Shown one piece after another: positions 10,446 through 28,184 of a stretch of 64,000 nucleotides of DNA (position 1 is its first letter; every line of letters starts with the position of its first letter). Under the pieces are notes generated by a model, which worked only from the letters and a program-made list of their open reading frames with translations, was not told where the DNA came from and ran no database searches. Position numbers and translations under genes: made by a program. The stretch comes from Herbaspirillum sp. LeCh32-8 (GTDB lineage: Bacteria; Pseudomonadota; Gammaproteobacteria; Burkholderiales; Burkholderiaceae_D): positions 403,084 through 467,083 of the forward strand of contig NZ_JAGIPZ010000002.1 of the NCBI RefSeq assembly GCF_017814915.1, read 5' to 3'.

Positions 10446-11600
10446 TCAGAAGGAGGTGCGCAATCCGGCGGTGACGGCCCAGGGATCGAAGCCCGGCGTG
10501 ACCGTGGCGGAAGCCGGACTGAGCAGGCCGAAGCCCTGCGTCGACCGGCCATTGTTGACGATGCGGGTGGCATAGCCATACAGCTGCGTGCGCTTTGACA
10601 GGAAGTAGACATAGCCGGCGCTATAGGCCGTGGCCCTGGCGTCGCCCTGCTGCGCGCGGCGCGAGACGCCCAGGTTGATGTCGCCGGGGCCGGTGGCAAT
10701 CCTGGCGTTGAGCATCACGGCCGAGCTGAACCAGGCGCCGGGATCGGTGCGCTTGGAATAGAGGTAATTGGCGCCCAGCATGTTGCCGCCCACGTTGAAG
10801 GTGGCGGCGACCACTTGCGTGAGCTGCGAGATATTGGGCAGCGACGCGGCTGCCGTGCCCGGATCGTAGCGGTGGCGGTTGACGCCATAGCCCAGCGTGA
10901 CCGGGCCGCGCGCATATTGCAGGTTCATGCCGATGTTGCGGCCGTTGCTCAGGTTACTGCTGTCTTCTGCCCCGAACGAGTAGCCGATCTCGCTGGTCAA
11001 GCCATTGAACAACACCGGCGTGCGATAGCGGATGGCGTTGGAATAGAAGCCGCCGGTGCCGGACTTGCCCAGGGTGGAGGAGTGCTCCAGCGACATGATG
11101 GCCGACGGATTGGCCAGGCCATAGGTGGCGACATCCGAGCCGAGAAATACCCAATAGATCGGCAAATACAAGGAGCCGACATCGATACTGCCGTAGTCCG
11201 CGCTGGACAATCCCACCGCCGCGCCGCGGTTGAACAGGGTGGTGCCGCCGCCGACGCCGGTGTCGATGCTGAAGCCGGTCTCCAGCTGGAAGTTGGCGCG
11301 ATATCCAGCGCCCAGATCCTCGCTGCCGCGAAAGCCCAGGCGCGAGGCTTGCAGGTTGCCGCTGGCCAGCGCCGCGCTGGCGCCGACGCCCTTGTCGAAC
11401 TTGCCGTACTGGAGCGCGGCGTCCACGATCCCATACAGCGTCACGCTGGAAGGCGCCTCCACGGCGCGGGCGTTTTGCGTCAGGCCTGCCGCGCCCAATG
11501 CCATGGCGCAGAGCACGCGTCCATGTCGCGCGAGTGAGCGCCATGGCCGGCGCTGGCGCGCGGATGCTGCAGGATTTTTTTTGTATTGCTGGGCGGTCAC
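10446..11600 (-). CDS. Gram-negative general porin, last gene of the sulfo-ED operon
   Basis: 384-residue outer-membrane trimeric porin of the betaproteobacterial type. A long signal peptide ends near QNARA. The mature start SSVTLYGIVDAALQYG, the early motif SRLGFRGSEDLGAGYRANFQ and the terminal Phe (LRTSF) are hallmarks of this family. The start is GTG at 11600, supported by AGGAG five bases upstream. It is the most distal gene of the nine-gene operon, 60 bases after the SDR gene. Its position suggests uptake of the operon's sulfosugar or sulfoglycoside across the outer membrane, but pore specificity cannot be read from sequence. Confidence 0.88.
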   Translation of the reverse strand: MTAQQYKKNPAASARQRRPWRSLARHGRVLCAMALGAAGLTQNARAVEAPSSVTLYGIVDAALQYGKFDKGVGASAALASGNLQASRLGFRGSEDLGAGYRANFQLETGFSIDTGVGGGTTLFNRGAAVGLSSADYGSIDVGSLYLPIYWVFLGSDVATYGLANPSAIMSLEHSSTLGKSGTGGFYSNAIRYRTPVLFNGLTSEIGYSFGAEDSSNLSNGRNIGMNLQYARGPVTLGYGVNRHRYDPGTAAASLPNISQLTQVVAATFNVGGNMLGANYLYSKRTDPGAWFSSAVMLNARIATGPGDINLGVSRRAQQGDARATAYSAGYVYFLSKRTQLYGYATRIVNNGRSTQGFGLLSPASATVTPGFDPWAVTAGLRTSF

Positions 11601-11660
11601 GATGTCTCCTTGTTTTTTTCAGGGTGGCGTGGCGGGAATCAGTTGCACATCAACGGGTAA

Positions 11661-12467
11661 TCAGCCGACCACCGACACCTGCGCCAGCCCCGCATCCACC
11701 AGCAGGTTCTGGCCGGTGATGGCGGCGGCCTGGGGACTGGCGAGGAACAGTACGCTGTCGGCGATATGCTTCGGTTCGACGCGCAATTTCAGGCATTGCA
11801 GGTCGATGAATTGCCGGTCGGCGCCGGCATCGCGCCAGAGCGCGGTTTGTCGCTCGGTCACCACCGCGCCCGGCAAGACCGCGTTGACGCGGATGCCGTG
11901 CTCGCCCAGCTCGCGCGCCAGGGTGCGCGTCAGGCCGGAGATGCCGGCTTTCGAGGTGGTGTAGCCGATCAGGTTGGGCCGTCCGCGCAACCAGGAAATC
12001 GACCCCAGATTGATGATCGCGCCGCCGCCGGTGGCGCGCATGCCCGGCGCCACGCACTGGGTGGCGAACACATGGTGGGTCAGGTTCACCGCCAGCATTT
12101 CGTTCCACATGTCGATGTCCAGTTCGTCGAGGCTGTGGCGCGTATCGCGGCCGGCGTTGTTGACCAGGATGGACACCGGGCCGAGCGCGCGCGCGGCGTC
12201 CTCCAGCACCTGGCGATAAGCCTCGATATCGCGCACGTCGCACGCCGCGAACCATGGGGGCAAACGCCGCACCGCGCTGCCGACCGGGGCGGCCTCCAGC
12301 CGCTCGCACAGCGCCGCGCCGCGTTGCGCATCGAGATCGCAAAACGCCACTTGCGCGCCTTGCTCCCAGAAGGCTTGCACCAGTGCTTCGCCGATGCCGG
12401 ACGCGCCGCCGGAAATGAAGGCGACTTGCCCCGCGAGTCCGGGGTAGAGGGGGCTGGGTGGATTCAT
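11661..12467 (-). CDS. SDR dehydrogenase, candidate sulfoquinovose 1-dehydrogenase
   Basis: Classical short-chain dehydrogenase, 268 residues. Visible features are the Rossmann motif SGGASGIGE (19-27), Asp44 at the end of the second strand (favours NAD+), NNAG (103-106), and the catalytic Ser156, Tyr169 and Lys173. SDRs near sugar lactonases usually oxidise C1 of an aldose. In the sulfo-ED route of Pseudomonas putida SQ1 an SDR oxidises sulfoquinovose to the sulfogluconolactone, and I infer that job here from the adjacent GH31, lactonase, dehydratase and aldolase genes. An ordinary galactose or arabinose dehydrogenase is the main alternative. Confidence 0.82.
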   Translation of the reverse strand: MNPPSPLYPGLAGQVAFISGGASGIGEALVQAFWEQGAQVAFCDLDAQRGAALCERLEAAPVGSAVRRLPPWFAACDVRDIEAYRQVLEDAARALGPVSILVNNAGRDTRHSLDELDIDMWNEMLAVNLTHHVFATQCVAPGMRATGGGAIINLGSISWLRGRPNLIGYTTSKAGISGLTRTLARELGEHGIRVNAVLPGAVVTERQTALWRDAGADRQFIDLQCLKLRVEPKHIADSVLFLASPQAAAITGQNLLVDAGLAQVSVVG

Positions 12468-12486
12468 CGTGGTCTCCTCGGGGTGT

Positions 12487-13389
12487 TCATGGATGGTTAG
12501 GCATTGACGTGGGGGCAGTAGCGCAAAGCGTCAGCGAGACGCGCGCCGACAGGCTCGCGCCGGGCTCGAGCACATGCATCGCAGGCAACTGGCCGTGCAA
12601 GGCATTGTTCGCGTGCGATACCGGTTCGAAGGCAAAGAAGGCTTGTCCTTCGGGGCGGAACAGCACCGCGCAGCACAAGGTGTCGCTGGCGGTGAGATGG
12701 ATCGTGTGGCGGGGCGCGCTGATCGTGGCTTCGCGCGTCCAGCCGGTGAAGCAGTTGTCGATCACCGTGTCGTCCAGCGCGCCCAGGGCCGGCGGGGCGA
12801 CTGCTGCGCGCGGCAATTTGTCCGGGCCGTTGAGCAGCATCGACGACCAGCCGGTGTGCAGATGGGTGGGGCCGCGTGCGCTGTCCAGCGGGAAGAAGGG
12901 ATGCCAGCCCAGGCCGCAGGGAGCGCGCTGCGCGGACCGGTTGGTGAACTCCAGCGCCAGCGTCAATGTGTCGCCGTCGACGCTGATGTGCTGGTGCGCC
13001 AAAAACGCAAACGGCCAGGCGCGGTCGGGCTGGTGCTCAAGCGCCAGCGTGATGCTGCCCGCCTCCTGCCGAACCACCTGCCAGGGGCGCTGGAACCCGA
13101 CGCCGTGGATCGCATGCGGCTCACCCGGGAAGTTGGCCAGCAGGGCATGGCGTGCGCCTTCAAACGTGAAGCCGGCATGGGCGATCCTGTTGGAAAACGG
13201 CAGCAACGGATAGCAGGCGGTGCGGCGCACATTGCCCTGGGCCAGGTCGGCCTCGGCGGTGGCGCGCAGCACGTCCTGGCCGCGCCAGCGCGCGCTCGTG
13301 ATCGATCCGCCCAGCGTCGGCGCCAGCGTCACGCGCCAGTCGCCGCTTTCCAGCGTGCACAGCGGCGTCACGGACAAAGTGTCGGACAT
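12487..13389 (-). CDS. Aldose 1-epimerase, candidate sulfoquinovose mutarotase
   Basis: Galactose-mutarotase-fold protein, 300 residues. Conserved parts are LLPFSNRI (sugar-binding Asn/Arg), a HGVGFQRPW segment with the first His, LGWHPFFPLD with the second catalytic-region His, and FEPVSHANNALHG. It interconverts alpha and beta anomers of an aldose. In sulfoglycolytic operons such a protein supplies the anomer used by the dehydrogenase after the glycosidase has released the sugar. It lies 11 bases after the aldolase and 19 bases before the SDR. Substrate specificity is inferred from context only. Confidence 0.83.
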   Translation of the reverse strand: MSDTLSVTPLCTLESGDWRVTLAPTLGGSITSARWRGQDVLRATAEADLAQGNVRRTACYPLLPFSNRIAHAGFTFEGARHALLANFPGEPHAIHGVGFQRPWQVVRQEAGSITLALEHQPDRAWPFAFLAHQHISVDGDTLTLALEFTNRSAQRAPCGLGWHPFFPLDSARGPTHLHTGWSSMLLNGPDKLPRAAVAPPALGALDDTVIDNCFTGWTREATISAPRHTIHLTASDTLCCAVLFRPEGQAFFAFEPVSHANNALHGQLPAMHVLEPGASLSARVSLTLCATAPTSMPNHP

Positions 13390-13400
13390 GACGGCCGGGC

Positions 13401-14243
13401 TCAGTAAGGGCCACCGGCATTGGCCTGCGCCGCGCCGCCGGTCAACTCCGACAGGAAAGCCGCGGCCTGGCGCATCAGCATGCCCATGTCGGACGCGACC
13501 GCGACGAAGTCATAGCCCATCCGGATGAAATCGCCCACCATTGCCGGCGTCGGGCCGACGATACCGATCGGCTTGCCGATCGCCCGGGCGCGGCGCGCGC
13601 AATCGGCCAGCACGGCTTGCAGCTCTGGGTCGTTGATGGCGCCGATCTTTCCCAGCGCCGCCGACAGGTCGCCCGGACCGACGAAGAGCGCATCCACGCC
13701 CGGCACGGCGGCGATGTCTTCCAGCCGCGCGATGGCCTCGGGCGTCTCCAGCTGCACGATGCAGGCGGTGGCGTCGTTGGCGCGCCGGCTGAATTCACTC
13801 CACGTGCCGTAGCGGCTGGCCCGGTGCATGGCGGCAAAACCACGCGTGCCCAGTGGCGGGAACTTGGTGGCGGCGACTGCCGCGCGCGCCTCCTCGACCG
13901 TCTGCACAAAGGGGAACATCAGCGTTTGCGCGCCCATGTCGAGGGCGCGCTTGGCCAGGGTGGCGTCGGTACGCGCCAGCCGTACGACGGGGGCGGCGCG
14001 GCCGCAATCCACCGCGCGCAGGAGGTGCTGCATGTCGGTGAATTCGAAGGGCGCGTGTTCCATGTCGATCAGCAACCAGTCGAAGCCGGCATGCGACAGC
14101 GCCTCGGCCGTGGCCGGGGCGCCGGACATCAGCCAGGTGCCGACGGGGACGGCGCGCACATCGCGCACATCGCGCACATCGCCCATGCCGGGGCCGGACA
14201 GCAGTTCGCAAAACGCATTGCGGGTAGGATCTTGCCGTGTCAT
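13401..14243 (-). CDS. HpcH/HpaI aldolase, candidate KDSG aldolase
   Basis: Class II (metal-dependent) pyruvate aldolase, 280 residues. Catalytic features are LLIDMEHAPFE (His63), VVRLARTD (Arg88), IVQLETPEA (metal ligand Glu166) and VGPGDLSAALG (metal ligand Asp192). In sulfo-ED this family splits 2-keto-3,6-dideoxy-6-sulfogluconate into pyruvate and sulfolactaldehyde. The ATG at 14243 is chosen for the AAAGGA 7 bases upstream. The N-terminus contains three consecutive DVR units encoded by a 9-base tandem repeat, which looks like a slippage product. A KDG or 2-keto-3-deoxy-L-rhamnonate aldolase role is possible if the substrate is not sulfonated. Confidence 0.85.
   Translation of the reverse strand: MTRQDPTRNAFCELLSGPGMGDVRDVRDVRAVPVGTWLMSGAPATAEALSHAGFDWLLIDMEHAPFEFTDMQHLLRAVDCGRAAPVVRLARTDATLAKRALDMGAQTLMFPFVQTVEEARAAVAATKFPPLGTRGFAAMHRASRYGTWSEFSRRANDATACIVQLETPEAIARLEDIAAVPGVDALFVGPGDLSAALGKIGAINDPELQAVLADCARRARAIGKPIGIVGPTPAMVGDFIRMGYDFVAVASDMGMLMRQAAAFLSELTGGAAQANAGGPY
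14154..14180. repeat. Three perfect tandem copies of a 9-base unit inside the aldolase gene
   Basis: GCGCACATC occurs three times head to tail (14154-14162, 14163-14171, 14172-14180). On the coding strand it gives Asp-Val-Arg three times near residue 22 of the aldolase. The unit keeps the reading frame whatever its copy number. Confidence 0.9.
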
Positions 14244-14263
14244 CTCAATTCCTTTGTCAGTGT

Positions 14264-16009
14264 TCAGAAAATCGGCGGCTCGACCGGCGTTTCGTAGCCG
14301 GTGAGGAAATCGAAGTCGCAGCCCTTGTCGGCTTGCGACACGTGCTCCACATAGAGCCGGATGTAGCCGCGCTGGCGCGGCAGCGGCGGCGGCTGCCAGT
14401 CCTCCCGGCGGCGCGCCAGCTCTTCGTCGGACAAGGCCACGTTGAGCTGGCGTGCTGCAACGTCCAGTTCGATGATGTCGCCGGTACGGATCAGCGCCAG
14501 CGGGCCGCCCGCCGCCGCTTCCGGCGCGACGTGCAGCACGCAGGTGCCGTAGTGGGTGCCGCTCATGCGGGCGTCGGAGATGCGCAGCATGTCGCGCACG
14601 CCGGCGGCCAGCAGCTTTTTGGGAATCGGCAGATTGCCCCACTCAGGCATGCCGGGCGCGCCGATCGGGCCGCCTCCGCGCAGCACCAGCACGGTGTCGG
14701 CATCGACGTCGAGATCGGGGGCGTGGATGCGCGCGTTCATCTCCGCCACCGAGTCGAACACCAGGGCGCGGCCGCGATGCTTCAGCAGGTGCGCGCTGGC
14801 CGCACTGGGCTTGATCACCGCACCGTTGGGGGCAAGGTTGCCGTGCAGTACCGCCAGCGCCGCGCCCGGCGTGACCGGCTCGGCCAGCGGACGGATCGCG
14901 GTTTCGCCCTGCACGCGTCCCCGTCCGGTGAATTGCGCGATGTTCTCGCCCAGCGTGGCGCCGGTCACGGTCAGGCAGTCCAGCGACAGGCGCGGCTTCA
15001 ATTGCGCCAGCAGGGTCGGCAATCCGCCGGCGTAATAGAAATCCTCCATCAGGCGCTTGCCGGAAGGGAAGACGTCGGCCAGCACCGGTACGCCGGCGCC
15101 GATGCGCGCGATGTCGTCCAGGCTCAGCTCGACCTGGCCGCGCCCTGCGATGGCGATGGTGTGGATCGCGGCGTTGGTGGAGCCGCCCAGCGCCATGTAG
15201 GCCACGATGCCGTTCTCCACCGAGGCGCGGGTGAAGAAGCGGCTGGGCTTCAGGTCTTCCCACACCATGCCGACGATGCGCTCGGCGCTGGCCGAACACA
15301 TGCGCGTGTGCGCCGAATCCATGGCCGGGATGCTGGTGGCGCCGGGCAGGGTGAAGCCCATCGCCTCCACGATCGAGGTCATGGTGCTGGCCGTGCCCAT
15401 CGTGTTGCAGGTGCCGGGCGCGCGCGTCATGCGCGCTTCCAGCGCCACCCATTCTTCCTGCGGGATGTTGCCGGCGACGTATTCATCCCAGAATTTCTTG
15501 GTGTGCGTGCCCGCACCGACCGCCTGGCCACTGTAGCGGTCGCTCAGCATCGGCCCGGCGGGAACGTAGATGCAGGGCAGGTCGGCCGACAGCGCACCCA
15601 TCAGCAGCCCGGGGGTGGTCTTGTCGCATCCGCCCATCAGCACCGCGCCGTCGACCGGCAGCGAGCGCAGCAGCTCTTCGGTTTCCATCGCCAGGAAATT
15701 GCGGTAGATCATCGTCGTCGGCTTGACCATCACCTCGCCCAGCGACATCGCCGGCAACTCCGCCGGCAGGCCGCCGGCCATCAGGATGCCGCGCTTGACC
15801 GCCTCCGCGCGCTCGCGCAGGTGCGCATGGCAGGGCGACAGGTCGCTCCAGGTATTGATGATTGCGATCACCGGCCGCGTCATGAATTCGTCGCGGCGCA
15901 GCCCCATTTGCTGCAGGCGCTGGCGATGCGCGAAGGAGCGCATGTCGTCGGGGGAGAACCAGCGCTGGCTGCGCAGTTCGGCGAGGGTTTTGAGTTTGTC
16001 TTGCACCAT
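14264..16009 (-). CDS. IlvD/Edd family sugar-acid dehydratase, candidate sulfogluconate dehydratase
   Basis: 581-residue iron-sulfur dehydratase. Three cluster Cys are visible: Cys60 (DLSPCHAH), Cys128 (MGGCDKTTPG) and Cys201 (APGTCNTMG), with the family segments GGSTNAAIH and RISDARMSGTHYGTC. Members dehydrate aldonic acids to 2-keto-3-deoxy acids. In sulfo-ED the substrate is 6-deoxy-6-sulfogluconate. The length matches pentonate/hexonate dehydratases better than Edd (about 600). It sits between the TauE gene (16 bases) and the aldolase (20 bases) in the operon. Substrate is inferred from context. Confidence 0.87.
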   Translation of the reverse strand: MVQDKLKTLAELRSQRWFSPDDMRSFAHRQRLQQMGLRRDEFMTRPVIAIINTWSDLSPCHAHLRERAEAVKRGILMAGGLPAELPAMSLGEVMVKPTTMIYRNFLAMETEELLRSLPVDGAVLMGGCDKTTPGLLMGALSADLPCIYVPAGPMLSDRYSGQAVGAGTHTKKFWDEYVAGNIPQEEWVALEARMTRAPGTCNTMGTASTMTSIVEAMGFTLPGATSIPAMDSAHTRMCSASAERIVGMVWEDLKPSRFFTRASVENGIVAYMALGGSTNAAIHTIAIAGRGQVELSLDDIARIGAGVPVLADVFPSGKRLMEDFYYAGGLPTLLAQLKPRLSLDCLTVTGATLGENIAQFTGRGRVQGETAIRPLAEPVTPGAALAVLHGNLAPNGAVIKPSAASAHLLKHRGRALVFDSVAEMNARIHAPDLDVDADTVLVLRGGGPIGAPGMPEWGNLPIPKKLLAAGVRDMLRISDARMSGTHYGTCVLHVAPEAAAGGPLALIRTGDIIELDVAARQLNVALSDEELARRREDWQPPPLPRQRGYIRLYVEHVSQADKGCDFDFLTGYETPVEPPIF

Positions 16010-16025
16010 GGGATCGGCCGTAGGT

Positions 16026-16820
16026 CTAGCGGGGTTGAATGGGAGAGGGCGACGTCACGGCCGGCTCGTGCGTTACCGGCAGCAGCAGGCTGGCACCGGC
16101 GGCCAGCAGCAGCGCAAACACCGCGCCGCGCATGGCGGCCGGCGGCCAGTCGGGCGGGTAGCGGCGCACCAGCCAGGTGACCAGCAGCACCAGCGGCAGG
16201 GCTTCCAGGCTCAGCATCAGCGACGCCGCGTCGAAGCGTCCCTGCGCCAGCACGATCAGCAGCCGCAGCACGGCGTTGACGGCGAACAGCAACACCAGCG
16301 TGTCGCGCACCACCAGGCGATCGAGCGGCTGGCGGTACAGGTGAAACACCATCGGCGGCCCGGCGCTGGCGAACACGCCGCCCATCACGCCGGACACCGC
16401 GCCGAAAAACGCGAAGGCGCCGGGAGAGGACAGCTGCGTGCGCGTCCGGGTCTGGATCACCAGCAGCACGCTGCAGGCCAGGATGGCGATGCCGAGGGCG
16501 ATGCGGGCGGCGCCGATGGCGTGGTCGGACAGCCAGGCCAGCAGGCAGGCGCCCAGCGCCACGCCCGCCAGGCTGCTGCCGAACGAGGGCAGCAGCAGCC
16601 GGCGTGGCAAGGCCGGCAGGCGCCGCACCAGCAAGGCGGCATTGGCCAGCACCATCACCGTGACGACGTTGGCCGCCACCGGCAGCGGCGCCAGATGGAA
16701 GGCCGCCACCAGGCCCAGTAGCACCAGGCCGAACGCAAAGCCGGTCAGGCTTTGGGTGAAGGTGGCCAGGATGACGCAGGCCGCGAACAGCAGATGATGC
16801 TGGACCAGGGATCCGCTCAT
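16026..16820 (-). CDS. TauE/SafE family permease, candidate sulfolactate/sulfonate exporter
   Basis: 264-residue integral membrane protein with about eight hydrophobic helices and the two-repeat layout of TauE/SafE proteins (first repeat TQSLTGFAFGLVLLGLV, second FFGAVSGVMGGVFASAGPP). The family exports sulfite or small sulfonates. In the sulfo-ED operon of P. putida SQ1 a TauE-type protein is thought to release the C3-sulfonate product. The ATG overlaps the last base of the GH31 stop (TGATG), so translation is coupled. Its presence in this operon is strong contextual support for a sulfonated substrate. Confidence 0.85.
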   Translation of the reverse strand: MSGSLVQHHLLFAACVILATFTQSLTGFAFGLVLLGLVAAFHLAPLPVAANVVTVMVLANAALLVRRLPALPRRLLLPSFGSSLAGVALGACLLAWLSDHAIGAARIALGIAILACSVLLVIQTRTRTQLSSPGAFAFFGAVSGVMGGVFASAGPPMVFHLYRQPLDRLVVRDTLVLLFAVNAVLRLLIVLAQGRFDAASLMLSLEALPLVLLVTWLVRRYPPDWPPAAMRGAVFALLLAAGASLLLPVTHEPAVTSPSPIQPR

Positions 16821-18859
16821 CAAAGGCTTCCCGCCAGCGTCAGCAGGGCGGGCGCGCACGCTGCGCCGTCGCGCACGAACACCGGCGGCTCGCCGATGGG
16901 GGCGGCGACGTCCACGCGCCGCCCGCCGTCGAAACGCGCGCCGCTCCACAGATGGATCCAGCGATCGCCGCGCGGCAGATAGGGCTGCCAGCGTTCCTGG
17001 CCGGCCTGATGCACCGGCGCCACCAGCACATCGCGACCGTACAGGTATTGGTCCTGGATGGCGTAGGTCGCCGCGTCCTGTTCGTAGTGCAGGAACAGCG
17101 GGCGTTGCAGCGGCAGGCCGCGTTCGGCGGCTTCGGCCGCCAGGGCGCGCACGTAGGGTTTCAGGCCGACGAATAGGCGCGTCATGCGGGCAAAATGGGC
17201 CAGCACCGCATCGTCCTGCCAGAACTGGAAATTTTCGTCCGGGCGGTTGCCTTCATGGGTGCGCATCACCGGCGTGAACGCCGCCATCTCGGCCCAGCGC
17301 TGGAACAGTTCGGGCGTACGGCGATTGCCGAACAGGCTGGTGTAGCCGCCGATGTCGCTGTGGTGGTAGGCATTGCCGAGCAGGCCGGAGGAGAGCGCGC
17401 CGCAGATGACGGTCTGCAGGCCGTCATGGCGGGTGAAATCGACCGACTGGTCGCCCGCCCACAGCAAGGGGCAATGCGCCTGCACGCCGGTGTAGCCGGC
17501 GCGCATGAAGAACATGGCGTCGCCGGTGCGGCCGGCGGCGGCGATGGCGCGCGCATTGACCTCGGCCCACAGCGTCGGCCAGGCGTTGTGCATCAGCATC
17601 GGGGACACGCCGTTGGCCAGCGTGACGTCGGTGGGCAGGTATTCGCCGAAATCGGCCATCCAGCCGTCCAGGCCTTGCGCCAGCATCTCGTCGCGCAGGA
17701 TGCGCTGTTCGAACCAGCGTGCCGCCGCCGGGCTGGTGAAGTCGACCACGCCGCAATCGAATTCGCCGAAATCGACCAGGTAGTCGCCGTCATCGGCCTG
17801 CGTCGCCAGGTGGCCCAGCTCGCGGGCTTCCTGGTACAGCTGCCCGTCCACGCACAGATAGGGATTCACATAGCCGAGGAAGCGCACGCCCTCGCGCTTG
17901 AGTTGACGCACCCAGTCCTCGTGGCCGGGATAGCGCGCCGCGTTCCAGCGCCAATCCCAGAACAGGCGCTTGCCGAACGAGGTCTGGCGGATGCCGACCC
18001 AGTCCTCGCACCACAGGCCGCTCACGGCGACGCCGGCGGCGCGGCTTTGCTCCATGATGTGCGCGGCGTGCTCGCGGCCGTTCTTCAGGCCCAGCACGGC
18101 GCCGTCGGACAGCCACTCGGGCAGCATGGGTTGGCGGCCGAAGCGGGTCGAGACGTGTCCGACCAGGGTGGGGAAGTCCTCCGCGAGGATGAATTCCAGG
18201 CGCTCCGGAATGGCCCAGAACTGCAGCTCGTGCCAATCCGCGTGACGAAAATCGAAGTCGGCATACGCGCTGGTCTGCGCATGCAGGCAATAGCGCTGGG
18301 AAGACAGGAAGCTCGGTTGCGGGTAATTGGTGTGGTAATAGTCGCCGCCGGCGCGGCCGCTCACGTCGGCTTGCCAGGTCAGCTGCGTGGTCTTGTCGCG
18401 ACCCACGCCGGGCTCGGACGTCCACAGCGGGAAATGCCGGCCGCGCATGTCGAAATACGACATCTGCTCGCCGCAGCCCCACACGTGCTCCTGCGCCAGC
18501 GCAGGCACGCGCCACCACAGGCGATTGATGCCCTGCGCGCCGCTCAACATGAGGTGGGCGCCGGTGGCGGTGATCCGGGCGGTGATCGTGATTTCCGTCG
18601 CCGCGTCGGCGTGGCGGGCCAGCTCGATGCGCACCTGTTGCGGGCCGTGCTCGGTGATGCGCGCTTGGCGCAGCGCGACGCGCTCTTCCACGTAGTCGCT
18701 GATGTCGAAATTGCCGCGATACATCTCCACCTGTTCACGCCCGTGTCCGATGAATACGCAGGGGGTGTCGGGATGGTGTTTGAACAGCGTGCGACCGGCG
18801 AGTTGCAGCGTCAGCCGGCCGTCGGCGTCTTGGGTCCAGTTCATGTTGTGAGATTCCAT
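16820..18859 (-). CDS. yihQ: GH31 sulfoquinovosidase (YihQ type)
   Basis: Retaining alpha-glycosidase that releases sulfoquinovose from sulfoquinovosyl glycerol and similar plant sulfolipid products. 679 residues, close to E. coli YihQ (678), which it resembles throughout. Nucleophile Asp403 lies in GWMADFGEYLPTD and acid/base Asp470 in LLWAGDQSVDF. The sulfonate-binding set of YihQ (Arg301, Trp304, Tyr508) is matched by Arg298-x-x-Trp301 in TSFGKRLFWDW and Tyr506 in HHSDIGGYT. Ordinary alpha-glucosidases of GH31 lack this Arg/Trp pair. No signal peptide, so the glycoside is cleaved in the cytoplasm. Start 18859 is 11 bases after the symporter stop; ATG 18844 is an alternative. Confidence 0.95.
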   Translation of the reverse strand: MESHNMNWTQDADGRLTLQLAGRTLFKHHPDTPCVFIGHGREQVEMYRGNFDISDYVEERVALRQARITEHGPQQVRIELARHADAATEITITARITATGAHLMLSGAQGINRLWWRVPALAQEHVWGCGEQMSYFDMRGRHFPLWTSEPGVGRDKTTQLTWQADVSGRAGGDYYHTNYPQPSFLSSQRYCLHAQTSAYADFDFRHADWHELQFWAIPERLEFILAEDFPTLVGHVSTRFGRQPMLPEWLSDGAVLGLKNGREHAAHIMEQSRAAGVAVSGLWCEDWVGIRQTSFGKRLFWDWRWNAARYPGHEDWVRQLKREGVRFLGYVNPYLCVDGQLYQEARELGHLATQADDGDYLVDFGEFDCGVVDFTSPAAARWFEQRILRDEMLAQGLDGWMADFGEYLPTDVTLANGVSPMLMHNAWPTLWAEVNARAIAAAGRTGDAMFFMRAGYTGVQAHCPLLWAGDQSVDFTRHDGLQTVICGALSSGLLGNAYHHSDIGGYTSLFGNRRTPELFQRWAEMAAFTPVMRTHEGNRPDENFQFWQDDAVLAHFARMTRLFVGLKPYVRALAAEAAERGLPLQRPLFLHYEQDAATYAIQDQYLYGRDVLVAPVHQAGQERWQPYLPRGDRWIHLWSGARFDGGRRVDVAAPIGEPPVFVRDGAACAPALLTLAGSL

Positions 18860-18870
18860 GTCGGGCTTGG

Positions 18871-20631
18871 TCAATGATCCGCAGCCTTGGCCAGCTTCGG
18901 TCCTGCGGACGAACGTCCGGCGCTCATACGTGCGATGTGCGCGTGGTGATAACGGCGCGACACCACCAGCAGCACCAGCGCCGCGATCCAGGTGAGGGCC
19001 ATCCACACGAGATAGTCGGAGGTCACGCCGCCGTGGCGGGCAATGCCCAGCGGCGAGAAGGTCAGGTAGATGCTCACCAGCAGCGCGATCAGCAGCACGC
19101 TCATGGTGCTGGCATGGCGCCACGGTGTCAGGTCGCCATGCTCGCGCGAGCGCGCCTGGTAGGGTTGGACGCGGCGATAGCGCCGGCCCAGCAACAGCAT
19201 CAGCGCGACCTCGCAGACAAACAGGATGCCCATGATGTGGATGAAGTTGATGCCGTAGACCTTGTCGACCTTGAACACGAAGATCAGCAGGGTGTAGACG
19301 ATCACGTGCAACAGCAGCACCACCTTGGCCGGGAAGGCGTCGATGCGGCGGCTGAAGAAGCCCACCAGCACCACCGCGATGATGGGGATATTGAAGAAGC
19401 CCGTGAAGCGGCGCATCACGGTATAGATGCCGTCCGGCGCAAACATCAGCAGCGGCGCGATCAGCAGCGAGACCATGGCGATGGCGATGCTGGCCACCTT
19501 GCCGACGCGGATCAGGCGCTCGTCGCTGGCGTCGGGCTTCCAGGCGCGATAGAAGTCGAAGGCGACCAGCGTGGCGGTGCTGTTGATGACCGCGTTGAAG
19601 TGACTCATGATGGTGCCGAACAATACCGCCACGAAGAAGCCGCGCGCCCACCACGGCAGCACATCGGCCACCAGCTGCGGATACGCCAGGTCGGGGCGGC
19701 TCAGCGGATTGTCCGCATACAGGTGGTAGGCGATCACGCCCGGCAGCAGCATCACCAGCGGCACCATCAGTTTCAGCAGGCCGGACAGCAGGACGCCTTT
19801 TTGTCCCTCGGCCAGGTTCTTGGCGGCGAAGGTGCGTTGCACGATCGACTGGTTAGTGCACCAGTAGAACAGGTTGGCGAAGATCATGCCGGTAAACAGC
19901 GTGCCGAACGGGACCGAATCGTTCGGGCCGCCGATGGCGGAGAGTTTTTCCGGGGCCTGCGTGCCGATGATGTGCAAGCCGGTGGAGAAGTCGCCCTTGC
20001 CCAGCGCGACCAGGCCCAGCACCGGCACCATCAGCCCGGCCACCAGAAGGCCGACGCCGTTGATCGTGTCCGACACCGCCACCGCGCGCAGGCCGCCGAA
20101 GATGGCGTACAGCGCGCCGATGATGCCGGAGATCCAGACCAGCAGCGTGATGGTGGTCGGATAGGACGTGCCGAACATTGCCTGCACGCCGAACACCTGG
20201 TTGAAGGTGATCGCGCCCAGGTACAGGCCCGACGGATTGACCACCAGCATATAGCCGACCACGAAGAAGGCGCTGACCACGCGCCGGGTGGTGGCGTCAT
20301 AACGCTCCTCCAGGAATTGCGGCAGCGTCGAGAAGCCCCCGCGCAGGTAACGCGGCAGGAAGAACATCGCCAGCGCCACGGTGGCGATCGCCGCGGTGCA
20401 TTCCCAGGCCATGGCCGACAGGTTGTGCGCGTAGGCGTCACCGTTGAGGCCGACCATCTGCTCCACCGACAGGTTGGTGAGCATCATGGAGCCGGCGATG
20501 AACCAGCCGGTCAAGCCGCCGCTGGCCATGAAGTAGCCGCGCGCGCCGTGATCCTTGGCGCGACGGGTGAAGAGGTACGACACATAGCCGACCAGCGCCG
20601 TAAACAGGACAAAACTCAGGATGGTAAAAAT
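18871..20631 (-). CDS. Sodium:solute symporter, YidK-like, with probable ATT start
   Basis: SSS-family transporter, about 586 residues with some 14 helices. It resembles E. coli YidK and vSGLT-type sugar transporters (MLTNLSVEQMVGLNG, FYWCTNQSIVQRTFA, AEGQKGVLLSGLLKLM). Probable substrate is sulfoquinovose or its glycosides, from operon context. The first ordinary start codon, GTG 20583, lies within helix 1 and would truncate it. The frame continues upstream as IFTILSFVLFTALVGYV, matching the YidK N-terminus, to an in-frame TAA with no ATG, GTG or TTG. AAGGAG sits 6 bases before an ATT at 20631 (and 3 before an ATC at 20634), so an AUU start is likely. Confidence 0.85.
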   Translation of the reverse strand: MFTILSFVLFTALVGYVSYLFTRRAKDHGARGYFMASGGLTGWFIAGSMMLTNLSVEQMVGLNGDAYAHNLSAMAWECTAAIATVALAMFFLPRYLRGGFSTLPQFLEERYDATTRRVVSAFFVVGYMLVVNPSGLYLGAITFNQVFGVQAMFGTSYPTTITLLVWISGIIGALYAIFGGLRAVAVSDTINGVGLLVAGLMVPVLGLVALGKGDFSTGLHIIGTQAPEKLSAIGGPNDSVPFGTLFTGMIFANLFYWCTNQSIVQRTFAAKNLAEGQKGVLLSGLLKLMVPLVMLLPGVIAYHLYADNPLSRPDLAYPQLVADVLPWWARGFFVAVLFGTIMSHFNAVINSTATLVAFDFYRAWKPDASDERLIRVGKVASIAIAMVSLLIAPLLMFAPDGIYTVMRRFTGFFNIPIIAVVLVGFFSRRIDAFPAKVVLLLHVIVYTLLIFVFKVDKVYGINFIHIMGILFVCEVALMLLLGRRYRRVQPYQARSREHGDLTPWRHASTMSVLLIALLVSIYLTFSPLGIARHGGVTSDYLVWMALTWIAALVLLVVSRRYHHAHIARMSAGRSSAGPKLAKAADH

Positions 20632-20760
20632 GATCGTCTCCTTATGGTCTCTTTTTTATGCGACAGCGTCCCCGCAATCTCGTGGCGACGCGCTTTCCGG
20701 CGTTGTCGGATTTCTGGCGATCCGCTTGCGCCGATGGTTCAGTTGGCAGTATTCACGGCC

Positions 20761-21663
20761 TCAGCAGCCGCGCCAGCGCGGTTCGATCAAGCCCGGCACA
20801 GCGGTGCGCAGCGCGAACAGGCCGCCGGCCTGCGGCTGACCGGCGAGCTCCGCGGGCGGGCGGCCTGCGCGCGCGGTGGTGATGTAGAGCGTGCGCAGAT
20901 CAGGCCCGCCGAAGGCGCACATGGTCGGACACTGCACCGGCAGCGGGTACATCGCATCCACTTTTCCCGCCGGCGTGAACCGCACGACCCGGCCGCCTTC
21001 GTAGAAGGCGCTCCAGTAGCCGCCTTCGGCGTCTACCGCCGCGCCGTCCGGGCGTCCGCGATCCTCGGCGGTGGGTGCGATGCTGACCCAGGTCGCGCGT
21101 GGGCCGCATGCCCCCGTCGCGACGTCGTAGGCCGAGCGATAGATCGTGAAGTTGGGGGTATCAGCGTGGTACATCCAGCGGCCGTCAGGGCTGAAGGCCA
21201 GGCCGTTGGAGGTCAGCAGGCCGTGGCTCAGCACCTCCAGGCGTTGCTGCGACAAGCGGTACAGGTGAGCGCGGCCGCCGGCCTTGGGTTCGTCGATCGT
21301 GCCTGCGATGAAGCGGCCGCGCGGGTCGCAACGTCCGTCATTGAAGCGGCTGGTGCGGATGTCTTCCGGGTTGGCGCACAGTTGTTCCTGCGGACGGGCC
21401 TGGGCGTCGAGGCGCCAGATGCCGGAGCGCAGGCCCGCGATGAAGCCGCCGTCTTCAGCCAGCGCGAAGCAGCCGATGGCCTCCGGCAAGGCGAACGTGA
21501 CATCGCTGCCGGTGGCAGGGTCGAAGCGGTGCAGGGCCTGGCCGAGGATGTCGACCCAGTACAGCACCTGCCGGCGCTCATCCCAGCGCGGGCATTCGCC
21601 CAGCTGGGCGCGCGCGTCGAGTACGCACAGGGGGGAAGCGTTGCTTGATGTGTTGGTCTGCAT
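20761..21663 (-). CDS. SMP-30/gluconolactonase family protein, candidate sulfogluconolactonase
   Basis: 300-residue six-bladed propeller lactonase. Metal-binding residues expected for SMP-30 are present: Glu23 in LGECPRW, Asn108 in RFNDGRCD, Asn153 in TSNGLAFSPDG and Asp206 in RPDGAAVDAEG. It opens aldonolactones; in sulfo-ED the substrate is 6-deoxy-6-sulfogluconolactone. It is the first gene of the operon, with its promoter in the 302-base divergent region shared with the LacI gene. The start at 21663 lacks a good ribosome site, but the family begins shortly after it. A 129-base gap separates it from the symporter. Confidence 0.88.
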   Translation of the reverse strand: MQTNTSSNASPLCVLDARAQLGECPRWDERRQVLYWVDILGQALHRFDPATGSDVTFALPEAIGCFALAEDGGFIAGLRSGIWRLDAQARPQEQLCANPEDIRTSRFNDGRCDPRGRFIAGTIDEPKAGGRAHLYRLSQQRLEVLSHGLLTSNGLAFSPDGRWMYHADTPNFTIYRSAYDVATGACGPRATWVSIAPTAEDRGRPDGAAVDAEGGYWSAFYEGGRVVRFTPAGKVDAMYPLPVQCPTMCAFGGPDLRTLYITTARAGRPPAELAGQPQAGGLFALRTAVPGLIEPRWRGC

Positions 21664-21800
21664 AGCGAGCAATGAACAAGCCGGGCTGTTGCTGTGTGCC
21701 TGAAAAATGGTGAGCCGGAATTGCCGGGAAGCGCCGATCGCGCTTTTGCGCCTGCCTGCCGCCGAACCGTGAATCCTGCTTGGATTCATTCAAGGTCATG

Positions 21801-21816
21801 TTTGTTTGGCAACAAA
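21801..21816. promoter_or_regulatory. Perfect inverted repeat in the SMP-30/LacI divergent region
   Basis: TTTGTT (21801-21806) and AACAAA (21811-21816) flank TGGC. It lies just downstream of the predicted start of the sulfo-ED operon, a usual place for a repressor site. It may be a second site for the LacI regulator or for another protein. Confidence 0.4.
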
Positions 21817-21825
21817 TTAAAAATA

Positions 21826-21868
21826 ATAGCGCTGCGAAATTATAGCGCTGCGATTTTTGATTTGTCCA
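21826..21868 (-). promoter_or_regulatory. Promoter of the sulfo-ED operon with paired AGCGCT operator-like repeats
   Basis: On the minus strand, TGGACA (21868-21863) and a perfect TATAAT (21844-21839) are spaced 18 bases apart. A 12-base direct repeat ATAGCGCTGCGA occurs at 21826-21837 and 21842-21853, 16 bases apart. Each copy holds the palindrome AGCGCT, a typical LacI-family half-site core with central CG. The copies sit on both sides of the -10 box, as expected for repression by the divergent LacI protein. Confidence 0.6.
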
Positions 21869-21892
21869 ATGGAGATTGGCTTGCGCCAAGAC

Positions 21893-21921
21893 ATGACGTG
21901 CTGCAACGCAGCGTTTAAAAT
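21893..21921 (+). promoter_or_regulatory. Possible promoter of the lacI-type gene
   Basis: ATGACG (21893-21898) and TAAAAT (21916-21921) are spaced 17 bases apart, 45 bases before the ATG. The -35 match is moderate. Confidence 0.35.
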
Positions 21922-21965
21922 AGCGTTCGTTCCCACCCCAGCGGGGGCTTCCTGGATGCGCACGG

Positions 21966-23048
21966 ATGACCGACACCACTAAGAATTCCTCAAAAAATGC
22001 CGCCCGCAGCCGCCGCGGCACCAATCGCGTCACGATGGATGACGTCGCCGCGCGCGCGCGGGTTTCGGCCAGTTCCGTTTCGCTGTTCCTGCGCAATCCC
22101 GAGGCCGTGTCGGCGCGCATTGCGCCGCGCATCAAGCGCGCCATTGAGGTGCTCGGTTACGTGCCCAACAAGCTGGCGGGCAGCCTGGCCGCGGCGCGCA
22201 CGCGCGCCATCGGGGTGGTGGTGCCGGCGCTGGGCAATGCCTTCTTCGCCGAGACGGTCGCGGCCATGCAAAGCGAATTCGACCGCCACGGCTACCAGCT
22301 GTTGCTGGGCGCGAGCGAGTACGACCTGGAGCGCGAGGCGGAGCTGGTGCGCGCCTTTCTTTCCTGGTCGCCCACCGCCCTGGTGGTCACCGGCTGTCAT
22401 CACAACGAAGCGACCCACACCTTGCTGCGCCAAGCCAATGTGCCGGTGGTGGAGATGTGGGAGACCGGCGAGCAGCCGTTCGACCTGCAGGTCGGTTTTT
22501 CCCACCGGGCAGTGGGCGAAGCTCTGGCCGCGCACCTGCATGGATTGGGCGCGCGCCGCATCGCCTTCATCGGCGCGCGTATGGAAAAGGACATGCGCGC
22601 CGGTCAGCGGCGCGACGGTTTTTGCGACTGGTTCAAGGCGCGCGGGATCGACGCGCTGGCGATCAACCAGCCGGTAGAGGCCTCGCCCACCGCCGGCGGC
22701 GCAGCCCTGAACGCTGCGCTGGACGCGATGCCGGATCTGCAGGCGGTGGCCTGCTCCAACGACGTGATGGCGCTGGGTGTGCTGTTCGAGGCCCAGCGGC
22801 TGGGGATCGCGGTGCCCGATCGGTTGGCGGTCACCGGTTTTGGCGACCTGCCTTTCAGCCAGGCGTGCGTGCCCTCGCTGACCACCATCGAGCCGCGCGC
22901 GAGTGTGATCGGCCTGAGGATCGCGCAGGAATTGCTGGCCCGTCTGGACGCCGAAGCGCAGGGCGAGGACGCGCCGGAACCGAAGGTGGTGGACGTGGCC
23001 TTCGAGCTGATGGTGCGGGATAGCAGCCGCCGCGGCCCGGCGGATTGA
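21966..23048 (+). CDS. LacI-family transcriptional regulator of the sulfo-ED operon
   Basis: 360 residues: a basic N-terminal extension (about 1-20), a LacI helix-turn-helix (VTMDDVAARARVSASSVSLF, 22-41), hinge, and a periplasmic-binding-protein-like sensor domain (from IGVVVPALGNAFFAETVAAM, with VACSNDVMALGVLFEAQRLG). Overall it is closest to the GntR/gluconate-repressor branch of LacI proteins. It is transcribed away from the nine-gene operon, and the shared region carries paired AGCGCT repeats over the operon promoter. A repressor relieved by sulfoquinovose or a pathway intermediate is the simplest reading; the effector is unknown. Confidence 0.9.
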   Translation: MTDTTKNSSKNAARSRRGTNRVTMDDVAARARVSASSVSLFLRNPEAVSARIAPRIKRAIEVLGYVPNKLAGSLAAARTRAIGVVVPALGNAFFAETVAAMQSEFDRHGYQLLLGASEYDLEREAELVRAFLSWSPTALVVTGCHHNEATHTLLRQANVPVVEMWETGEQPFDLQVGFSHRAVGEALAAHLHGLGARRIAFIGARMEKDMRAGQRRDGFCDWFKARGIDALAINQPVEASPTAGGAALNAALDAMPDLQAVACSNDVMALGVLFEAQRLGIAVPDRLAVTGFGDLPFSQACVPSLTTIEPRASVIGLRIAQELLARLDAEAQGEDAPEPKVVDVAFELMVRDSSRRGPAD

Positions 23049-23268: not shown

Positions 23269-23502
23269 ATACCTCCCGCACAAGTAAAGCAAAACGGAGA
23301 CAGACACGATGCGCCCCGCATCCCGCACGCGTTCGCGTCGCGCCTTCCTGCCGGCCTTACCCATTACCCGTTACACATCGTCCATCCGCAGCATTCGCGT
23401 GTCAGCCAAACGGCCGTTCGAGCCGGAGCGCGCACCGGGATGACAGGACTTACCCGGCCGCCAAATCACAGAGGGAGGAGGCGGCCGTCACAGGAGATAT
23501 CC

Positions 23503-24894
23503 ATGAGCGACATCCAGAGCACCAGCCTGAAAGCCGGCCAGCAGGCGCCCAAGCAACTGAGCGCGGCAGACTACCGCAAGCGCATCTTCGCCATCCTCGG
23601 CGCCTCGTCCGGCAACCTGGTCGAGTGGTTCGACTTCTACGTCTATTCCTTCTGCGCGATTTATTTCGCGCCAGCCTTCTTCCCCAAGGGCGACCCCACC
23701 ACCCAGCTGCTGAACACCGCCGGCGTGTTCGCCGCCGGCTTCCTGATGCGCCCGATCGGCGGCTGGCTGTTCGGTCGTATCGCCGACAAGCATGGCCGCA
23801 AGACCTCCATGCTGATCTCGGTGCTGATGATGTGCGGCGGCTCGCTGGCCGTCGCCATGCTGCCGACCTACGCCACCATCGGCGCCTGGGCGCCCGCGCT
23901 GTTGCTGCTGGCGCGCCTGTTCCAGGGCTTGTCGGTGGGTGGCGAATACGGCACTTCGGCCACCTACATGAGTGAAGTCGCGCCGCAGGGCCGTCGCGGC
24001 TTCTTCGCTTCCTTCCAGTACGTGACGCTGATCGGCGGCCAGTTGCTGGCAGTGCTGGTGCTGTTCGGCATGCAGCAGTGGCTGACCAAGGCCGAGCTCA
24101 TGGACTGGGGCTGGCGCGTGCCGTTCGTGCTGGGCGCGGTCGGCGCGCTGGTGGCGATGTACCTGCGCAGCTCGCTGGCCGAGACTGCCTCCGAAGGCAG
24201 TCGAAAGAAGAAGGAAGCCGGCACCCTGAAGGGCCTGCTGCAGCACAAGCGCGCCTTCATCAACGTGGTCGGCTTCACCGCCGGCGGCTCGCTGATGTTC
24301 TACACCTTCACCACCTACATGCAGAAGTACCTGGTCAACACCGCCGGCATGGATCCCAAGGTCGCCAACGGCGTGATGACCGGCGCGTTGTTCGTCTACA
24401 TGATCCTGCAGCCGATCTTCGGCGCCATCTCGGACAAGATCGGCCGCCGCAACTCCATGCTGTGCTTCTCCTTCCTCGGCATGATCTGCACTTTCCCCAT
24501 CCTGCACCTATTGAAGGACGTCACCAGCCCCTACGCCGCCTTCGGCCTGGCGATCCTGGCGCTGACCATCGTCAGTTTCTACACCTCGATCGGCGGCCTG
24601 ATCAAGGCCGAGATGTTCCCGGCCGAAGTACGCGCGCTGGGCGTGGGCCTGTCGTATGCGGTGGGCAACGCCATCTTCGGCGGCTCCGCCGAGTTCGTGG
24701 CGCTGTCGCTGAAGTCGGCCGGCATGGAGTCGAGTTTCTACTGGTACGTCACCGCGCTGTGCCTGGTGGCGCTGGTAGTCACGCTGCGCATGCCTGACCC
24801 GCAGCGCGACGGCCACCTGCACGAGGACGTCGATATGGAACATGACGACGCCGCTCCCCAGGTCGACAGCCTGAAGCAGCACAAGCCGGCCTGA
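23503..24894 (+). CDS. kgtP: 2-oxoglutarate:proton symporter, MHS family
   Basis: Inner-membrane major facilitator that imports 2-oxoglutarate. 463 residues, with 12 predicted helices and close resemblance to E. coli Kgt[19 protein letters not shown], the MFS loop [39 protein letters not shown] and [20 protein letters not shown] charged C-terminal tail (His/Asp/Glu-rich) extends beyond the E. coli protein. ATG 23503 has AGGAG 6 bases upstream. It is preceded by a sigma-54 promoter and followed on the same strand by a sensor kinase and sigma-54 activator that probably control it. Confidence 0.93.
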
Positions 24895-25038
24895 TCCGGC
24901 GCGCCGGGGCGGCATGTGCGCCGCCTCGCGCTATCATTGGGGACTTCGATCCCGTTGCAGCGAGCGGCGCCTTTCGGGGCGCCGCGTCGTATCTGCGCCG
25001 GATCTTTCTCCTGTATTCCGATTTCTGTCATCCCGCGC

Positions 25039-26837: not shown

Positions 26838-26838
<1 letters not shown>
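25039..26838 (+). CDS. DctB-like sensor histidine kinase
   Basis: 599-residue membrane kinase: helix 1 (about 7-28), a periplasmic sensor domain of the DctB/PAS-like fold (30-285, with FGFRPYFREAVLGRAGRFYGI and GYFIAQPIY), helix 2 (286-307), a coiled-coil linker (310-370), phospho-acceptor His388 in GVTHELNQPLAA, and an ATPase domain (DSGAGIP, FEPFFTTK, GLGLGLAIS). DctB proteins sense C4-dicarboxylates; next to kgtP the ligand may be 2-oxoglutarate. ATG 25039 has no clear ribosome site, and a longer frame back to 24916 exists, so the start is uncertain. Its stop overlaps the next gene by one base. Confidence 0.9.

Positions 26839-28184
<1,346 letters not shown>

Follow-up and report, generated by a model that had tools for sequence, protein, structure and literature searches.

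A predicted sulfo-Entner-Doudoroff operon without a sulfolactaldehyde dehydrogenase gene, probably through gene loss, in Herbaspirillum sp. LeCh32-8

The 64,000-nucleotide stretch of the Herbaspirillum sp. LeCh32-8 genome analysed here (the window; positions 403084-467083 of contig C22 of the source genome G000, a 5.03-Mb draft in 43 contigs) encodes nine co-directional genes on the minus strand (10446-21663, or 21789 with the longer lactonase frame) and a divergent LacI-family regulator gene on the plus strand (21966-23048). Together they very probably represent a LacI-linked operon of the sulfo-Entner-Doudoroff (sulfo-ED) type, predicted to convert sulfoquinovosides to pyruvate and sulfolactaldehyde (SLA), from which the gene for the SLA dehydrogenase (SLADH) is absent, likely as a result of gene loss. 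All ten open reading frames placed at 10446..23048 by a first-pass annotation of this DNA were found there, and each could be assigned to a family by Pfam, with the best match per protein ranging from E=9.5e-16 (TauE) to E=9.6e-101 (IlvD/Edd). Two details had not featured in that annotation, namely that the cluster contains no SLA dehydrogenase or reductase gene and that the symporter gene lacks an ATG, GTG or TTG start. The GH31 stop and TauE start codons overlap by one base and the remaining genes are separated by 11 to 60 bases, except for the 126 bases between the symporter and lactonase genes, and this tight spacing suggests that the nine genes form a single transcript. For the lactonase gene, the ATG at 21663 is preferred over that at 21789 on the basis of the leader sequences of two Paraburkholderia loci (L001 and L002). 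The features of the locus are as follows:

10446..11600, minus strand: porin (Porin_4; PF13609, E=1.5e-43), predicted to mediate sulfosugar glycoside entry
11661..12467, minus strand: short-chain dehydrogenase/reductase (SDR; PF13561, E=3.2e-53), predicted sulfoquinovose dehydrogenase
12487..13389, minus strand: aldose-1-epimerase family protein (PF01263, E=3.3e-30; nearest solved relative 3nre), predicted sulfoquinovose mutarotase
13401..14243, minus strand: HpcH/HpaI aldolase (PF03328, E=7.6e-39; nearest solved relative 1dxe), predicted 2-keto-3,6-dideoxy-6-sulfogluconate (KDSG) aldolase
14264..16009, minus strand: IlvD/Edd dehydratase (PF00920, E=9.6e-101), predicted 6-deoxy-6-sulfogluconate dehydratase
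16026..16820, minus strand: TauE/SafE-family exporter (PF01925, E=9.5e-16), predicted to export a sulfonate
16820..18859, minus strand: predicted GH31 sulfoquinovosidase (PF01055; NCBIfam PRK10426, 941.7 bits, cut-off 553)
18871..20634, minus strand (5' end about 20631-20634): SSS sodium:solute symporter (PF00474, E=2.4e-48; PRK10484, 706.1 bits, cut-off 401), predicted uptake protein
20635..20760: lactonase-symporter junction of 126 bases, the position of the SLADH gene in relatives
20761..21663, minus strand: SMP-30 family protein (PF08450, E=1.4e-85), predicted 6-deoxy-6-sulfogluconolactone lactonase
21826..21853: two tandem ATAGCGCTGCGA sites (21826-21837 and 21842-21853), predicted LacI operators
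21966..23048, plus strand: LacI-family regulator (PF00356, E=9.1e-12; PF13377, E=3e-31)

The first-pass annotation had considered this gene arrangement a distinct layout, a view that is not tenable. A search of 144 Paraburkholderia genomes with the GH31 protein yielded 13 positive genomes, 12 of which (loci L148-L159) share an identical ten-gene content and order, porin and symporter included, as does locus L111 in a genome of the same genus as the source strain (G264). The shared order is LacI, lactonase, symporter, GH31, TauE, dehydratase, aldolase, mutarotase, SDR and porin; in the thirteenth Paraburkholderia locus (L160) the dehydratase and aldolase genes lie apart from that for GH31. The dehydratase shows 85-88% identity to its counterparts in the thirteen loci of the same layout, and the porins at the equivalent position in the 12 Paraburkholderia loci share 64-70% identity with that of the window. 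Loci L001 (from the Paraburkholderia sejongensis genome G392) and L002 (Paraburkholderia sp. C35) represent the same places as L155 and L152, respectively.

When compared with solved protein chains, the GH31 protein matches six at E<=4.3e-222, the next match falling at 8.6e-46. Four of these (5ohy, 5ohs, 5aed and 5aee) are named as YihQ or sulfoquinovosidase, with the remaining two carrying general names (8r56, 'glycosyl hydrolase, family 31', and 6pnr, 'alpha-glucosidase'). Full-length alignments were obtained with 5ohy (E=3.3e-283) and 5ohs (E=1.4e-282). The catalytic aspartates D403 and D470 and the sulfonate-pocket residues K259, E285, R298, W301 and Y506 that mark a sulfoquinovosidase are present, and all seven are identical in the 5ohy alignment; the residue numbers given in the first-pass annotation are correct with the ATG at 18859. 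The position of D470 is occupied by Asn in the 5ohs chain, which is presumably an engineered variant. The Lys/Glu pair would place the enzyme in the Agrobacterium tumefaciens type, as opposed to the Gln/Gln type of Escherichia coli, A. tumefaciens also being the source of 5ohs. The motif name KERWY was not found in connection with sulfoquinovosidases in the literature searched.

The SDR protein shares 52% identity over 254 aligned residues with PpSQDH, the sulfoquinovose dehydrogenase of Pseudomonas putida. Ten of the 11 PpSQDH residues compared, as named in PMC12133307, are retained (Asp45, Asp99, Arg101, Asn119, Ser147, Arg152, Arg154, Tyr160, Lys164 and Gln198); in the PpSQDH structure Arg152 forms a salt bridge with the sulfonate, which Arg154 contacts via a water molecule (PMC12133307). 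Dehydratases of PF00920 and aldolases of PF03328 are the families employed in sulfo-ED pathways (PMC12421959, PMC9594981), and the four enzymes by which the pathway is defined in PMC13372026, the sulfoquinovose dehydrogenase, sulfogluconate dehydratase, sulfogluconolactone lactonase and KDSG aldolase, are all represented in the window operon, the latter three at family level. Three observations weigh against this assignment: the C-terminal Gln260 of PpSQDH is not conserved in the SDR, the closest NCBIfam model to the dehydratase is that of L-arabinonate dehydratase (876.5 bits, just under the cut-off of 882), and no sulfogluconate model occurs among the NCBIfam matches of this protein. The substrates of the dehydratase, aldolase and lactonase are thus assigned by family and gene neighbourhood only. 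Action of the operon on a related sulfosugar, such as sulfofucose, is nevertheless highly improbable. An Entner-Doudoroff-like sulfofucose pathway does exist, in a strain which likewise has no recognised SLA dehydrogenase and yet produces sulfolactate (PMC12421959), but it relies on an enolase-type dehydratase (PF13378/PF02746), while the sole dehydratase among the ten window proteins belongs to PF00920. Furthermore, neither the A. tumefaciens nor the E. coli sulfoquinovosidase acts on a sulfofucoside (PMC12421959), and the best match of the window GH31 protein assigns it to the A. tumefaciens type. The sulfo-ED call made in the first-pass annotation is therefore right and of a known kind, the GH31 protein resembling solved sulfoquinovosidases, the SDR keeping the P. 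putida residues and the dehydratase and aldolase families fitting, with the activity itself being predicted from sequence.

The end of the pathway is less straightforward. Sixteen clusters were compared, and in 12 of these (L111, L065, L005 and nine of the 12 Paraburkholderia loci) a SLADH gene is localised between the lactonase and symporter genes, the encoded proteins sharing 70-78% identity with that of L111. Among solved structures, the L111 SLADH is most similar to two chains named as succinate-semialdehyde dehydrogenases (4v6h, 1.2e-203; 8c54, 2e-185), the latter being RlGabD. The remaining four clusters, those of the window and of L153, L155 and L156, lack the gene. No dehydrogenase, nor any remnant of one, was seen by eye in the three frames of the window junction (20635..20760), and none of the 16 Aldedh (PF00171) matches in the source genome falls on contig C22. 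As it contains no SLADH, the operon is not filed under the sulfolactate-ending sub-type known from P. putida SQ1 and Rhizobium leguminosarum. The reductase characteristic of the sub-type ending in 2,3-dihydroxypropane-1-sulfonate (DHPS) is also missing, as a profile built from three sequences detected no NAD_binding_2-type frame in the locus. The earlier expectation of pyruvate and a C3-sulfonate as products thus stands in part: the steps to pyruvate and SLA are encoded, but the SLA dehydrogenase is absent and the final step must be inferred from genes elsewhere.

A tree was constructed from ten concatenated proteins of the 16 clusters and rooted on L005, whose available stretch lacks the mutarotase, SDR and porin; L160 (no full cluster) and the duplicates L001 and L002 were left out. 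In this tree the SLADH-less trio L153, L155 and L156 groups with the SLADH-bearing L148 (support 100), while the window pairs with the SLADH-bearing L111 (support 89). Seven single-gene trees unite the trio with L148 in every case and pair the window with L111 in four (SSS, EDD, SMP and POR). Forcing the four SLADH-less clusters into one clade is 275 log units worse and is rejected by the approximately unbiased test (AU p = 9e-76). The SLADHs of the window layout and of L005 form one clade (support 1.000), suggesting that the slot is probably old. In the simplest reading, at least two independent losses of SLADH from this ancestral slot are likely to have occurred. Several points tell against this reading. 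Support for the node joining L111 and the window is limited to 89%, and both are weakly placed in the three other single-gene trees (GH31, LacI and SDR; supports 0.007-0.588). The slot could alternatively have been refilled rather than emptied, and the junction, which lies inside a 591-kb contig of the 43-contig draft, may be misassembled. In the portions of the searched literature available, no paper was found on SLADH loss from Paraburkholderia or Massilia-type sulfo-ED operons. New here are the occurrence of an open-ended operon within an otherwise matched layout, the likely repeated SLADH loss and the apparent non-AUG start shared by the symporter genes.

The absence of SLADH was also surveyed more widely. 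Out of 99 loci considered, 49 displayed matches above 120 bits for each of GH31, dehydratase, aldolase and SDR; L001 was dropped as a duplicate of L155, and L002 and L152, which are one place, were both kept, leaving 48 loci at 47 distinct places. The sample was chosen by GH31 similarity, largely from the best 80 matches listed, and includes two loci cut by contig ends (L035 and L049), one with a partial frame at the edge (L078) and one whose stretch begins inside the dehydratase gene (L162). No aldehyde dehydrogenase frame occurs in the stretch examined for 16 of the 48 loci, an upper bound since several stretches are short; L153, L156 and L026 were counted as bearing such a gene, although their copies are only 26-31% identical to SLADH. 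Neither this enzyme nor a hydroxyisobutyrate-dehydrogenase-type reductase is found in 14 loci, again an upper bound, with L027 (one weak reductase-profile match, E=2.2e-4) and L046 (a strong match) falling outside this group. The absence in the window is thus not unique among sulfo-ED loci, and the contribution of the matched layout is to show in which direction the change went. Eight loci without an aldehyde dehydrogenase or reductase frame in the stretch (L036, L037, L040, L042, L063, L071, L066 and L023) include seven from alphaproteobacteria, among them Microvirga, Salinarimonas and Acidocella.

The symporter gene shows a second peculiarity. Between the upstream stop codon and the conserved N-terminus (IFTILSF) no in-frame ATG, GTG, TTG or CTG occurs in the window, and a canonical start is likewise absent from L111, L148, L153, L155 and L156, so that six of the 16 clusters, from two genera, share this feature. 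All six have ATC at the start position (20626-20640 in the window, minus strand), with AAGGAG located upstream in the window and the Shine-Dalgarno context retained across the ATC clusters as GAGGAGAC or AAGGAGAC. By contrast, the start codon is ATG in nine clusters assigned to Paraburkholderia (L149-L152, L154, L157-L159 and L065), and in L005 an ATG precedes the first Ile by four codons. Over the 16 codons that follow, most differences are either synonymous or conservative, indicating that this 5' stretch is coding. The simplest reading is that the symporter is translated from an AUC or AUU start.

The missing SLADH and the unorthodox start might be taken to reflect a decaying operon, in which loss of the dehydrogenase broke the pathway and the remainder is drifting. 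This is very unlikely, as none of the reading frames is interrupted and the ratio of nonsynonymous to synonymous substitution rates (dN/dS) for the ten genes, determined pairwise against L148 and L111, is 0.11-0.31, both of which argue against decay. The non-canonical start is, moreover, common to five relatives, two of which (L111 and L148) possess SLADH, and the SLADH-less Paraburkholderia trio also retains the whole operon. Some of the dS values are near saturation (up to 1.41), which weakens the argument from substitution rates.

Both ATAGCGCTGCGA copies are located between the LacI and lactonase genes. A degenerate pattern, WYAGCGCTRCGAWWW, has exactly two matches in the 5.03 Mb of the source genome, both at this site, with none for the reversed-pattern control, while five other genomes searched contain 0-2 sites, as against 0-2 for the control. 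A sigma-70-like site (TGGACA-18-TATAAT, 11/12) occurs on the minus strand at 21868..21839, and two promoter-like sites were counted in the stretch, compared to a mean of 0.2 in shuffled sequences. The TATAAT -10 box (21844-21839, minus strand) is situated between the two GCGCTGCGA cores and extends over the three initial bases of the second copy, an arrangement consistent with repression by promoter occlusion at the predicted operators. In the five relatives searched, zero-mismatch matches to a longer palindromic pattern are confined to the clusters, at two places per genome in four Paraburkholderia (ahead of the lactonase gene and again ahead of the symporter gene) and at one in G264; the sites in the source genome match it with two mismatches. 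At up to two mismatches the four Paraburkholderia genomes yield 16-30 matches each, as against 16-31 for the control, and only zero-mismatch matches thus carry weight in that genus. A further LacI-regulated gene in the source genome was sought and rejected, as four of the six matches at up to two mismatches are the known sites read on both strands and the other two equal the number in the control (2).

With the G264 SLADH as query, the best matches in the source genome share 63% (contig C36) and 62% (contig C5) identity, the third sharing 51%. A match at E<=1e-150 is present in 31 of the 34 genus genomes, as against only two with the operon. A dehydrogenase tree was built from 33 in-cluster and 38 other sequences, with duplicate entries for both source-genome copies and for two in-cluster places. 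Both source-genome copies are placed among GabDs from other members of the genus and, at all four columns that separate the two sets at the 80% level, show the GabD residue, so that they look like housekeeping GabDs. They were accordingly rejected as a relocated SLADH, and similarity search and tree revealed no further member of the SLADH clade of this layout in the source genome. Two arginines have been proposed to bind the sulfonate in RlGabD (PMC10599462). These and the catalytic cysteine are present in all 33 in-cluster sequences, and among the other sequences the cysteine and first arginine occur in 38 of 38 and the second arginine in 37 of 38. The residues do not discriminate between the two sets, and their common occurrence makes SLA turnover by a GabD plausible.

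One of these two GabDs is likely to cover SLA oxidation in this strain. Two features of the dehydrogenase tree count against the overall reading of the operon, namely that not all SLADHs from clusters of other layouts join the SLADH clade of this layout, and that the best SLADH match in the SLADH-less P. sejongensis genome (G392, 47%) is placed, if weakly (0.713), near the in-cluster copies of Halomonas and relatives, so that this genome may encode a divergent SLADH. The best matches in the other two SLADH-less Paraburkholderia genomes share 59% (G399) and 61% (G485) identity, none of the three reaching the 70-78% of this layout. A shared replacement aldehyde dehydrogenase beside the porin was also considered and rejected, as the copy in L153 and L156 is 31% identical and none occurs there in L155 or the window. 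In these two loci (L153 16924-18645 and L156 16907-18604, operon orientation) the unrelated aldehyde dehydrogenase gene lies beside an FAD-dependent-oxidoreductase-like frame directly downstream of the operon; it resembles a lysine-catabolism enzyme and probably belongs to that pathway. The flanks of the three SLADH-less Paraburkholderia loci are not all shared, those of L155 differing on both sides from L153 and L156.

Reduction of SLA to DHPS, in place of its oxidation, is rather unlikely. A Vibrio sulfo-ED cluster in which an SLA reductase replaces SLADH ends in DHPS (PMC13372026), and three strong PF03446 matches (L228-L230) are present among the 13 in the source genome. No such reductase frame is found, however, in the window locus or, by profile search, in L153, L155 and L156. 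One of the three candidates, L228, lies directly behind an aldehyde dehydrogenase gene on contig C11, which presumably points to valine catabolism, and an NADH-consuming end would be less expected in an aerobe. A more speculative idea, advanced only tentatively, is that the operon stops at SLA on purpose, SLADH having been discarded more than once since an unlinked housekeeping or still unrecognised enzyme finishes the pathway, while the conserved AUC start throttles the Na+ symporter.

In the route proposed, the porin and SSS symporter would import sulfoquinovosyl glycerol or a similar glycoside, from which the GH31 enzyme, presumed cytosolic, would release sulfoquinovose. The mutarotase would equilibrate the anomers of this sugar, the SDR would oxidise it with NAD+ to the lactone and the SMP-30 lactonase would open the latter. 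Dehydration of the resulting sulfogluconate by the IlvD/Edd enzyme would give KDSG, to be cleaved by the HpcH/HpaI aldolase to pyruvate and SLA. One of the two GabD-type dehydrogenases encoded away from the operon would most likely oxidise the SLA to sulfolactate, and the TauE protein may export the product. LacI likely represses the operon from the two tandem operators flanking the -10 box, with repression being lifted by a pathway compound.

The operon is rare among relatives of the source strain. Within the taxonomic family, a GH31 match at E<=1e-100 was observed in 15 of the 392 genomes, 12 (source genome included) at 70% identity or more and three at 39-40%, and a match at E<=1e-150 in two of 399 genomes in an order-wide sample, one being the source genome. 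Among the 34 genus genomes compared, only G000 and G264 feature in the family-wide matches. The GH31 protein shares 78% identity with that of G264, as against 76-79% for 12 of the 13 Paraburkholderia genomes and 65% for the thirteenth, and the neighbours of the porin gene in the window are not those found in L111 (the porin side having been compared). This lack of greater similarity to a genus mate, along with the differing neighbours, suggests that the operon was likely acquired horizontally. Upstream of the LacI gene (23287-28184), genes for an MFS transporter, a dCache-HisKA sensor kinase and a sigma-54 response regulator run in one direction and likely constitute an organic-acid uptake system. 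In Janthinobacterium locus L003, a glycerol-kinase-like frame (14237-15850; judged by eye and from recall) is found near the GH31 and TauE genes, in keeping with the use of sulfoquinovosyl glycerol, with ABC-transporter-like frames on the other side and no symporter match in the stretch. This locus was rejected as a sulfo-ED variant without dehydratase and aldolase, since its stretch begins at the ABC-transporter gene and both genes may lie outside it.

Sulfoquinovose is produced at approximately 10 billion tons a year (PMC12890257, PMC10755693), and whether sulfolactate, DHPS or another product is excreted decides which organism feeds next. Gene clusters often serve to deduce the terminal SLA enzyme. 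Its absence from an otherwise apparently constrained operon in two separate lineages, and the lack of an aldehyde dehydrogenase frame in the stretch examined, in several cases a short one, for 16 of the 48 loci surveyed, imply that the cluster by itself should not be used to deduce end products. As the clusters with the gene (L148 and L111) and without it (the window, L153, L155 and L156) are closely matched, the question can be tested directly.

Among known systems, the sulfo-ED pathway of P. putida SQ1 resembles that of the window in its SDR-type sulfoquinovose dehydrogenase with the same substrate residues, its mutarotase and its dehydratase and aldolase families. It differs in that SLA is oxidised to sulfolactate and a P. 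putida SLA dehydrogenase is listed, a gene the window operon lacks. Vibrio splendidus JLJ25 also combines a sulfo-ED core with the absence of SLA dehydrogenase, but carries an in-cluster SLA reductase and ends in DHPS (PMC13372026), whereas the window operon has neither enzyme. A predicted betaproteobacterial sulfo-ED operon with a mutarotase is found in Herbaspirillum seropedicae, the source of HsSQM (PMC5902678), for which, in contrast, an SLA dehydrogenase is listed (PMC10599462). Further parallels are the Paraburkholderia loci L148-L159 and L111, whose gene order is identical to that of the window, but nine of the 12 Paraburkholderia loci, as well as L111, have SLADH.

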